A stretch of 37,717 nucleotides of DNA. Source: Candidatus Woesebacteria bacterium (GTDB lineage Bacteria; Patescibacteriota; Microgenomatia; UBA1400; UBA1396). The notes beneath the pieces were generated by a model. That model was given only the letters and a program-made list of their open reading frames with translations. It was not told the origin of the DNA and ran no database searches. This document shows positions 2,903 to 33,537 of this stretch, one piece after another. The stretch covers positions 1 through 37,717 of the forward strand of contig JAJOJK010000019.1 of NCBI GenBank assembly GCA_021208605.1. Reading direction: 5' to 3'. Every line of letters starts with the position of its first letter. Within the stretch, counting starts at the first letter, position 1. The position numbers and the translations under genes were made by a program.

Positions 2903-4366
2903 ATGAAATTCGTAACCTGGATACAAGAAAAATACGCCGCTACAAAGGAAACTTTGCAGCGTGGTTGGAAGCAAGGATCGACCTTTGCTGGCAAGCAGTT
3001 TTCTCGAGTAGAGAAGCCGTTGCGTCGGTACCCAATGGTCAGCTTTTTGGTCTTGTTGGCGCTTTTGTTTGCCATTATCGCCGCCGTTAACTTGATTCAT
3101 TCCCCCGCAGAAACCAGTGACGAAACGGTCGACCGCACTAAAACCGTGCAAACCGTCTCGATCGGCCAAGCCCCGCGTATTCGCGTAAATGGTCAGGTGG
3201 AGAAATCTGGCGTCATTACCATCGTTGCTCCGGCACCTGGTGTGGTGAACTCGGTGTTGGTTGAACCGGGTCAAGAAATCTACAAAGGCAAAACCGTGGT
3301 CAGCTTAGCCAGCAATTACTCTGGTGGCAGCATTCCTGGCCTCCAAGCCCAAATTGCCAAAGAGCAGTGGAAAAACCTTGAAGAAACCTATCCCGCTCAA
3401 AAAGACATTATTACGAAACAACGCGAACTCGCTCAAAAGCAAGAAACCCAAGCCGATGATCTGCGTGAAATTTCCCGCAACTCCCTCGGCACCAGCCGCG
3501 ACTTGCTCGATTTGAACGAAACCATGCTGGAAACCGTGGAGGACACGTTGTCGACCTCGACCAACAGCGCCGAAATCCAAGCCGCTCGCCAGATGAAGGC
3601 CCAATTGTTGCAAGGCATTATTCAGCTGCGCTCACAGATCGACCAAACCGAGTACCAGAGCAATGACGACAATCCTCCCGCTGAGCTGGCTCGCCTACAA
3701 CGCGACCTGACCCTCAAGCAACTGGAAGTCCAAGAAAAATCTCTGGAACTCAACAAAGAAGTGACTCAGCTGCAGCTGCGTGTGGCGCAAGTCCAGGCGG
3801 CCAGCATGTACCCGAGTGCACCATTCAATGCTCGTGTTGAGCGCGTACACGTGTCCAAGGGTCAGTTTGTCCAGGCCGGCACACCGCTGGTCACCATTGA
3901 CTGCGACACCGCTGTCACCCAAGTGATCGCCAAAATTCCTGGCGAAATTTCCCAGCAGGTCAGCTCCATGGAGCCGAGCGTATTGATGATTGGTTCCGAG
4001 AGCATCGAACTTATTCCAGACTACGTCTCACACGAAGCGACCGACGGTCAGCTCTATAGCGTGCAGTACACTTTGCCGCTGGAAGTCACCGAATGGCTGA
4101 CTGATAACAGTTTTGTCAGTGTCGAGCTTCCTCTGGGGTACGCCGACACGAGCGCTGTGGTGCCGTTTATTCCTATTGATGCCGTTCACCAGAATGAACT
4201 CCAAGCCACTGTCTATGTCATGGAAAATTTCCAGGCGACCGCCCGCGAAGTCAAACTCGGTGACGTGCAGGGCCGTTTTGTGATGATCGAATCTGGCCTG
4301 AACCCTGGTGACATTGTCATTGTTGATAGAAATGTAGTGGCAGGAGATGCCGTAAAAACGATATAG
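2903..4366 (+). CDS. HlyD/AcrA-type membrane fusion protein of an RND efflux system
   Basis: A 487-residue periplasmic-adaptor-type protein. It has a cytoplasmic N-terminus of about 43 residues, one membrane helix (about 44-65), a first half lipoyl-like domain (about 100-140, PGVVNSVLVEPGQEI), a long Gln/Glu/Leu-rich coiled-coil hairpin (about 145-300), the second lipoyl half (about 306-335, RVERVHVSKGQFVQAG), then beta-barrel and membrane-proximal regions ending in GDIVIVDRNVVAGD. It lies directly upstream of the RND pump gene, so the two should form one complex. No TolC-like outer-membrane protein is nearby. That would fit a cell envelope without a classical outer membrane, in which case the adaptor would work outside the single membrane (inference). 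Confidence 0.88.
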   Translation: MKFVTWIQEKYAATKETLQRGWKQGSTFAGKQFSRVEKPLRRYPMVSFLVLLALLFAIIAAVNLIHSPAETSDETVDRTKTVQTVSIGQAPRIRVNGQVEKSGVITIVAPAPGVVNSVLVEPGQEIYKGKTVVSLASNYSGGSIPGLQAQIAKEQWKNLEETYPAQKDIITKQRELAQKQETQADDLREISRNSLGTSRDLLDLNETMLETVEDTLSTSTNSAEIQAARQMKAQLLQGIIQLRSQIDQTEYQSNDDNPPAELARLQRDLTLKQLEVQEKSLELNKEVTQLQLRVAQVQAASMYPSAPFNARVERVHVSKGQFVQAGTPLVTIDCDTAVTQVIAKIPGEISQQVSSMEPSVLMIGSESIELIPDYVSHEATDGQLYSVQYTLPLEVTEWLTDNSFVSVELPLGYADTSAVVPFIPIDAVHQNELQATVYVMENFQATAREVKLGDVQGRFVMIESGLNPGDIVIVDRNVVAGDAVKTI

Positions 4367-32234: not shown

Positions 32235-32340
32235 CCGCAGATTCGCCTGAGGGGCTAGGGAGGAGCGATGAGAAAAAATTTGGAAGTTCAAATGCCATGA
32301 CGCCCGCACCTCAGGAACTGTAATCGCGGTTTGGGACTTT

Positions 32341-32355: not shown

Positions 32356-32808
32356 ATGAAAACAATTCACCGAGACATCGTTTCCGCTGTCATTTTTTCC
32401 AAAGACAATAAAATACTCATGGGTAAAAAAGATTCCTCTAAAGGAGGAGTCTACAATGATTGCTGGCATATTCCCGGCGGTGGAATTGATAATGGAGAAG
32501 ATATGATTACTGCTTTAGGCAGAGAAGTCCTGGAAGAAGTTGGGATTGATATTTCTTCCTATAAAGCAGAATTACTTGATGATCTTGGCCGTGGTGAATC
32601 AGTAAAAACTGTGAACGGTGAAGACGTTAATTGCGAAATGACTTTTAATGTTTTCCGAGTTGATATCTCAGATAAAAATGCCAATGAGATTAAAGTAATG
32701 CTGAACGACGATCTTGTCGAATACACTTGGATTCCTTCTTCTGAATTATCAGAATTCAAACTAACACCTCCGTCTATAACTTTGTTTACTCGATTAGGAA
32801 TGTTGTAA
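32356..32808 (+). CDS. NUDIX hydrolase
   Basis: 150 residues. The Nudix box is complete: GGGIDNGEDMITALGREVLE followed by EVGI, with the REVLEE metal-binding core. The family hydrolyses nucleoside diphosphates linked to another group; the substrate cannot be told. The gene is AT-richer than its neighbours. The repeat GTTCCAACATCATCCC and a terminator follow the stop directly. Confidence 0.92.
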   Translation: MKTIHRDIVSAVIFSKDNKILMGKKDSSKGGVYNDCWHIPGGGIDNGEDMITALGREVLEEVGIDISSYKAELLDDLGRGESVKTVNGEDVNCEMTFNVFRVDISDKNANEIKVMLNDDLVEYTWIPSSELSEFKLTPPSITLFTRLGML

Positions 32809-32828
32809 AAAAGTTCCAACATCATCCC
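32807..32828 (+). repeat. GTTCCAACATCATCCC repeat, copy 1
   Basis: AAAAAA then GTTCCAACATCATCCC, overlapping the NUDIX stop codon and followed by ATGACACCCGCC. Copy 2 is at 33457-33479, also just after a stop codon. A decayed third copy may be at 32283-32307 (GAAGTTCAAATGCCATGACGCCCGC in two halves). Confidence 0.75.
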
Positions 32829-32839
32829 ATGACACCCGC

Positions 32840-32877
32840 CCATTAAAAAAGACTCCTACTGAAGTCTTTTTTAATGG
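32840..32877 (+). terminator. Rho-independent terminator after the NUDIX gene
   Basis: A perfect 15-bp stem (CCATTAAAAAAGACT with its complement) and an 8-nt loop. The A- and T-tracts are within the stem, so it could work in both directions. Confidence 0.75.
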
Positions 32878-32904
32878 ACTGGGTGGCGCAGATGAAAACC
32901 CAAG

Positions 32905-32983
32905 GGTTCCGCCGGGGCGAGCAAAGCGAGCAACCCTAGTACCCGGAGGGTGGAATCCCGAGGGAACGGTACATTTCGGAACC
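32905..32983. other. GC-rich structured non-coding segment
   Basis: Much richer in GC than the genes on either side. Nested complementary words: GGTTCCG (32905-32911) with CGGAACC (32977-32983), ACCCT with AGGGT, GTACC with GGTAC, and CCC-GA-GGG. It has no tRNA features and no open frame. It could be a repeat element or a structured RNA leader ahead of the HIT-like gene, but that gene has its own -10 after it. Confidence 0.45.
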
Positions 32984-32997
32984 ACGATACACTCATT

Positions 32998-33006
32998 TGC
33001 TATAAT
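32998..33006 (+). promoter_or_regulatory. Extended -10 promoter of the HIT-like gene
   Basis: TG-C-TATAAT (perfect hexamer), then exactly 6 nt, then ATG 33013. Confidence 0.7.
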
Positions 33007-33012
33007 CCTCTC

Positions 33013-33453
33013 ATGGCAGAAATATACCGAACAACCAACTTTATTTTAGAGTCTCACGAACGTCCAGAAGTCGATAGGAATGATGGAGGACACATCAAAA
33101 TTTCTCCTATAGAAGATGTTTCCGATCGTACTCAACTATCACCAGCTCTGGCAATAGAACTCATGCGCTTCACTATGGTTGCCGGACTAGCTTTTACTAC
33201 TGCCATGGCGCAACAAGGTATTACACTCGGTCGTATCAACTACCAAGAAAACGGTAACTGGAAGCCACATCTCCATATTCACCTTTATGGTCGCGCGATA
33301 AATGCTCAATATCAGAAATTTGGTGATCCAATCAAGCCTGGTCATAGAGAAGAGTACCAACCTTTAACAATAGAAGATTGTCAGCTTATTGCTACTGAAC
33401 TCGAAAAACTTTTTGGAGAAGAAAAATTCTCAGATCAGCAATGGGGACTGTGA
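33013..33453 (+). CDS. HIT-like (histidine triad) family protein
   Basis: 146 residues from ATG 33013, set by the -10 box. The motif HLHIHLYGR (H-x-H-x-H, about 93-97) after a GRINYQENGNWKP strand fits histidine-triad nucleotide hydrolases and transferases. The rest (SPALAIELMRFTMVAG helix, EDCQLIATELEKLF at the end) also fits a HIT-like fold. The substrate is unknown. It is AT-rich like the NUDIX gene upstream, and both are followed by the same GTTCCAACATCATCCC repeat, so the two may have arrived together. Confidence 0.75.
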   Translation: MAEIYRTTNFILESHERPEVDRNDGGHIKISPIEDVSDRTQLSPALAIELMRFTMVAGLAFTTAMAQQGITLGRINYQENGNWKPHLHIHLYGRAINAQYQKFGDPIKPGHREEYQPLTIEDCQLIATELEKLFGEEKFSDQQWGL

Positions 33454-33456
33454 GCT

Positions 33457-33479
33457 AAAAAAAGTTCCAACATCATCCC
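33457..33479 (+). repeat. GTTCCAACATCATCCC repeat, copy 2
   Basis: AAAAAAA then GTTCCAACATCATCCC, 3 nt after the HIT-like stop codon, followed by TTGACGCCAGC. It is identical to copy 1 over the A-tract and 16-nt core. Confidence 0.75.
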
Positions 33480-33537
33480 TTGACGCCAGCGATATCTTTG
33501 CCTCTTGAATGAAACAAACTGACATTTGCAGGTTATC

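Follow-up and report, generated by a model that had tools for sequence, protein, structure and literature searches.

The window, the whole stretch of 37,717 nucleotides analysed here, carries on its forward strand two small neighboring genes that are each followed by a copy of the same repeat. Both gene identities, a NUDIX hydrolase of 150 aa (32356..32808) and a HIT-domain protein of 146 aa (33013..33453), were confirmed by Pfam (PF00293, E=1.6e-15, and PF01230, E=4.7e-05); their GC contents of 0.369 and 0.415 against 0.494 for the window agree with the earlier note, which had described both as richer in AT than their surroundings. The identical A-tract plus 16-nt sequence that it had reported behind the two stop codons is present as exact 16-mers at 32813-32828 and 33464-33479; the repeat is longer than first reported, extending over 33 nt (32807..32839, AAAAAAGTTCCAACATCATCCCATGACACCCGC, and 33458..33490, AAAAAAGTTCCAACATCATCCCTTGACGCCAGC; 91% identity, three differences), and reads AAAAAAGTTCCAACATCATCCC[A/T]TGAC[A/G]CC[C/A]GC. 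Copy 1 starts inside the NUDIX stop codon, and copy 2 starts 4 nt past the HIT stop. An exact 16-mer repeat is unremarkable alone in a window of 37.7 kb (chance expectation ~0.66); for a 33-mer repeat with at most three mismatches the expectation is ~6e-6.

A decayed copy had also been suspected before the NUDIX gene, and it was recovered there as the third-best repeat alignment of the window (score 33, the next at 26); this 35-nt sequence (32273..32307) reaches position 32307, ends in CATGACGCCCGC and forms the 5' junction of the NUDIX unit. Exactly 22 nt later follows an inverted right arm, TTTGGGACTTT (32330..32340), and then TATACT; the arm is one mismatch away from the arm at other cassette starts and is the best arm match in the window. 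A possible degenerate right arm before the HIT gene (TTCGGAACCAC, 32975..32985), read from the sequence, is a weak match with three mismatches. A terminator-like inverted repeat lies directly behind copy 1 (32835..32882), and tRNA-type terminators follow sites at other loci. Behind the terminators after tRNA genes or sites, a GC-rich stretch (CGCCGGGGCGAGCAAAGCGAGCAACCC; CTGGGTTCGCGACGGGATCGAGCATAC) recurs at window positions 32883-32965 and at two other loci (L037, ~2750-2800; L090, ~3330-3380); Rfam gave no family above threshold for the window copy.

The genome search for more copies that the earlier note had proposed found diverged sites in the window's own genome, in addition to those of the window (contig C1): three in tandem on C8, two on C14 and one on C18. 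A first search at the level of the order yielded a diverged set of sites, whose flanks gave a consensus of ~30 nt, AAAGTTCCAAYWTCRTCCCAYGCTSYCCGC; the corrected pattern of the site family reads GTTCCAANNTCRTYCCANNNNNNCNGC. Among 374 genomes of the host class (Patescibacteria), a refined pattern matched 41 times in 26 genomes, and the reversed pattern, used as a control on the same genomes, matched nowhere. In a named collection, all 13 stretches with the site came from metagenome-assembled genomes (MAGs) labelled Pacebacteria, Gottesmanbacteria, Microgenomates (Patescibacteria-type) or just "bacterium"; the exact pattern in the window's own letters had no match in 85k genomes, and the viral contigs that were searched contained no site. 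Genomes with the site carry few copies (1-8 each), and occurrence is scattered (in one family, 4 of 50 genomes); with such a distribution the sites are unlike a DNA uptake sequence. Many of the sites come from fragmented MAG contigs; inspection by eye found no hairpin common to all of them.

The sites are linked to tRNA genes. Most sites, according to ARAGORN, have a tRNA-Ser gene upstream that is oriented like the site, and 48 sites could be assigned to 29 tRNA loci (Ser 20, Asp 4, Gln 3, Pro 2). The site end varies with the neighboring tRNA: it is CTCTCCGC-like behind tRNA-Ser, CCCGC or CCTCGC behind tRNA-Asp, CCGAC behind tRNA-Pro and CAGC behind tRNA-Gln. Compared with the end of their own tRNA, site ends matched on average at 5.98 of 8 positions (4.98 when permuted), a value reached in none of 5000 permutations; because the pattern that retrieved many of the sites was itself Ser-shaped, it is the nine non-Ser loci that carry the information in this test. 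At three places (C8, G059, G367) the stretch downstream of the tRNA is repeated behind the site, and three of the four tRNA-Ser genes of the own genome (CGA, GGA, TGA) have sites downstream, with a chance probability of ~7e-5 for a reach of 14 kb that was chosen after the data were seen. The far end thus repeats the tRNA 3' end, as in tRNA-targeted integrative elements; judged from the sequences, such features are typical of integration into tRNA 3' ends, with the tRNA end kept on one side and a copy left at the other.

In elements with ~4-6 kb between tRNA and site, a gene next to the tRNA encodes a protein of ~500 aa with Resolvase, Recombinase and zinc-ribbon domains (PF00239+PF07508+PF13408), that is, a large serine recombinase; this domain set is found at the integration end in relatives and is absent from the window. 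Its neighbor is a rolling-circle Rep of the ORF2/G2P type (PF23343, PHROG), one of which weakly matches RepSA. In most of the 30 best loci, where the tRNAs are Ser, Gln, Asp, Glu and Trp, the C-terminal end of the recombinase gene overlaps the convergent tRNA by 5-68 nt, and the antisense strand of the tRNA end supplies the final codons of the gene (..RRRWDSNPR); excision would therefore change the end of the protein (as at L093, 2743-4263, and comparable loci). When four of these recombinases were used to search the whole class (A1), 13 loci scored above 430 bits, and the next one 382. The site motif also stands, on the expected strand, at loci fetched for the recombinase alone: beside six of nine loci of the site-linked recombinase subfamily and beside none of five other recombinase loci (p=0.03). 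At the genome level, the co-occurrence of subfamily and sites is suggestive only (p=0.001 with the loci from which the alignment was built, p=0.12 without them). Elements do pile up, as a decayed, truncated second recombinase copy beside a site in one genome (G160) shows. The Rep genes were also considered in the light of inoviruses, which have been reported in the Candidate Phyla Radiation (PMC6813254); no morphogenesis gene stood out in the Rep-bearing elements, which were looked through without a dedicated search for pI, and this identification was not adopted. The serine recombinases that the own genome carries at tRNA-Ser(TGA) and tRNA-Pro share no more than 26-37% identity with the site-linked subfamily. 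The former, a 438-aa protein on C14, is encoded downstream of the tRNA in a prophage-like element with small and large terminase subunits and phage-like genes (L174, 6068-12200); the latter gene lies directly behind tRNA-Pro(TGG) on C5 (L175, 7065-8799).

Many sites also mark gene ends. An open reading frame of at least 80 aa ends within 45 nt upstream of 33 of the 63 distinct sites (random positions, 4.5%), and within 12 nt at 35% of the 63 (random positions, 1.5%). Ten sites have a neighbor gene on the opposite strand that starts just upstream of the site; the remaining 20 have neither a gene end nor a reverse gene, and are counted against the explanation favored here. Arrays of three to six sites, mostly made of single-gene units, were found in G206, in G238 and on C8 of the own genome (three sites). 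In G206, a tRNA-Gln gene, the recombinase and Rep are followed by six sites with one gene in most intervals; GTTCCAACGTCGTCCCA occurs four times at spacings of 421-707 bp, in near-identical sites with one complete gene each, and the junction sequence is GTTCCAACGTCGTCCCAGACACCCAGC. The G238 array has the same layout of tRNA-Gln, recombinase and Rep, followed by four sites with several genes in one interval. The idea of cassette-like units of one gene plus a 3' repeat, raised in the earlier note, finds good support in these counts and in the arrays of single-gene units.

The cargo of the units is variable. In three congeneric genomes (G055, G056, G057) the site lies upstream of the same conserved genes, encoding a protein of 280-285 aa (34-60% identity) and, in two of them, a protein of 395-411 aa (71% identity) that reads like a malic enzyme; on the cassette side the genes are unrelated and encode a signal-peptidase-like protein, a 191-aa protein and a 141-aa protein. 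Cargo also recurs in distant genomes: an 8xMP protein is shared by G233 and G246 (68% identity), a cargo pair of 52% identity is divided between a tRNA-Pro element and a tRNA-Asp element, and NUDIX cargo was found in the window and in G238 (Pfam), on C14 (by similarity to the window NUDIX), and in G055 and G057 (by eye).

A second arm of the site was recognized at few junctions, and most lack it. The inverted arm TTTGGAACTTT (0-2 mismatches) lies exactly 22 nt past the tRNA-like end at five junctions, four of them in the own genome: C8 sites 2 and 3, C14, the tRNA-Ser junction of G031 and the decayed junction of the window. At the internal C8 junctions the inverted arms AAAGTTCCAA and TTGGAACTTT are ~63 bp apart, with an inner pair GTTCTC/GAGAAC; AAAGTTCCAA and TTTGGAACTTT together would form a quasi-palindrome of ~63 nt, as expected for the attP of a serine recombinase. 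Several complete elements start with CA instead, restoring CCA.

The features observed directly are the sites, their linkage to tRNA genes, ends that match these tRNAs, the recombinase and Rep genes, the arrays, and the differing content at one conserved locus. On this basis the repeat is most likely the scar of small, often single-gene DNA that inserts behind tRNA ends in tiny Patescibacteria; more specifically, it is probably an attR-type junction, either of tRNA-targeting serine-recombinase elements or of the small, dependent cassettes that have piled up behind these. The mobile elements would form a family that integrates into the 3' ends of tRNA genes, mainly Ser, also Gln, Asp and Pro and probably Glu, by means of the ~500-aa large serine recombinase that is carried together with a rolling-circle Rep and read convergently into the tRNA end. 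Crossover would take place at the last nucleotides of the tRNA, and each integration would leave, at the far end, the element's half-site (A-tract, GTTCCAANNTCRTCCCA) joined to the last 4-6 nt of the tRNA (CCGC, CAGC or CCGAC). Complete elements would use their own recombinase, acting on these sites, to leave and enter tRNA ends; small units with the same end, often one gene and without a recombinase, are presumably inserted in trans and stacked, such that the newest unit would lie nearest to the tRNA. Neither an excised circle nor a matched empty site was seen in this analysis.

The window array is assigned to the site family because it has the family motif and the arm at the same 22-nt spacing. 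It is best read as a decayed orphan, with two units (the NUDIX and HIT genes as cargo) between three sites; the window has no tRNA gene and no recombinase gene, and the array would formerly have stood behind a tRNA. None of the tRNAs identified in the own genome fits the window site ends (CACCCGC, CGCCAGC), and a tRNA-Asn with the acceptor stem implied by these ends was found in none of 88 genomes of the order. Among the 45 tRNAs of the own genome, which is rated 99.75% complete, tRNA-Asn is the sole standard species that went undetected.

The strongest competitor accepts integration at tRNA ends by a serine recombinase and takes the small units to be larger elements eroded by deletion. The decayed second recombinase copy in G160, the junctions without a right arm and the decayed state of the window array without a tRNA would all fit erosion; against it, genes end with their stop codons right at the sites, units of the own genome show the arm again at precisely 22 nt, and the intact G206 array combines near-identical sites with complete genes, which leaves erosion an appreciable but unlikely account. 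A local duplication without relation to the site family is hardly credible as the origin of the window pair, even though the two copies are closer to each other than to the rest and no tRNA is nearby: both fit the family pattern with two to three mismatches, and at the first junction the arm follows with the same 22-nt spacing. A regulatory element in the 3'-UTR or associated with a terminator, conserved behind certain genes, would explain why the repeat lies between a stop codon and a terminator-like hairpin at several loci including the window; it is highly improbable, as ten sites have an opposite-strand neighbor gene starting near them, the 3' end follows the identity of the upstream tRNA, and Rfam gave no family above threshold.

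The earlier note had named integrons or other gene-capture arrays, and it is the second half of this guess that holds. Units of a single gene followed by a 3' site, together with the inverted arms at the internal C8 junctions, do resemble a tyrosine-integrase integron or integron-like array in which the repeat is an attC after each gene, and tyrosine recombinases were considered first; they were dropped because the same two genes occur nearly everywhere in the order. The own genome has only two PF00589 genes (contigs C3 and C7, none in the window), as do nearly all 88 genomes of the order, in which the two Phage_integrase-family genes are presumably Xer. The sites are located downstream of tRNA genes whose ends they mirror, the enzyme found with them is a large serine recombinase, no R''/R' pair of RYYYAAC/GTTRRRY boxes was found in the sites, and the second arm is missing at most of them. 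The system is not an integron, with neither the integrase nor the attC found, and an integron-like array of this type is very unlikely. Somewhat short of an even prospect, by contrast, is the idea of a serine-recombinase counterpart of the integron, in which single-gene cassettes would be moved in trans by a tRNA-targeting recombinase, captured serially at tRNA-Ser, -Gln, -Asp and -Pro genes and exchanged between species.

Integron cassettes consist of one gene plus a 3' site and form arrays with small, varied cargo including NUDIX genes; the system described here is similar in all these respects, yet has no IntI and no standard attC, would have no attI platform with no integrase to place it, and its target is a tRNA end. 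Staphylococcal cassette chromosome (SCC) composite islands use large serine recombinases and the 3' end of a gene (rlmH) as target, and contain tandem repeated att sites and recombinase-less members; these properties and the tandem stacking are shared, whereas SCC has larger cargo blocks, occurs in a different phylum and targets rlmH, not the tRNA genes targeted here. AICEs of the pSAM2 type integrate at tRNA 3' ends and combine a rolling-circle Rep with tyrosine integrases and a transfer protein; tRNA 3'-end integration and Rep are shared, and the tyrosine integrases set AICEs apart. Among additive flexible islands at tRNA genes, fGI-2 of 'Ca. Methylopumilus' has cargo units marked by a recurring 20 bp of the tRNA-Lys 3' end (PMC10872708). 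Copies of a tRNA 3' end likewise mark the cargo units here; the differences are that each unit end brings a conserved 17-nt half-site of its own, that the part copying the tRNA is limited to 4-6 nt, that several tRNAs serve as targets, and that the system is associated with a large serine recombinase. Tycheposons, described in the same source as tRNA-linked islands with a tyrosine recombinase (PMC10872708), are also tRNA-anchored cargo islands in streamlined genomes; here, the tRNA is accompanied by a serine instead of a tyrosine recombinase, and single-gene units and a rolling-circle Rep are present. By analogy, the system would work like an SCC composite or like tRNA-anchored additive islands (PMC10872708), with units of integron-like size; the best reading is tRNA-targeted serine-recombinase islands with cassette arrays, in Patescibacteria. 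A literature search that reached few subscription papers found no paper that links Patescibacteria to integrons, to serine recombinases or to tRNA islands as understood here.

Little has been documented on how Patescibacteria, with their very small genomes, acquire and retain variable genes; if true, the reading proposed here would show how streamlined bacteria collect and stack new genes. With a 27-nt site tied to tRNA ends, such islands can be listed in any assembly together with a candidate enzyme for each, and the question whether serine recombinases build cassette arrays becomes directly testable. The cargo at three loci (L095, L040, L039) includes matches to defence models, namely a type IV restriction enzyme, Fic and an OLD-like ATPase, and a HEPN gene near an oligonucleotide-cyclase-like gene.
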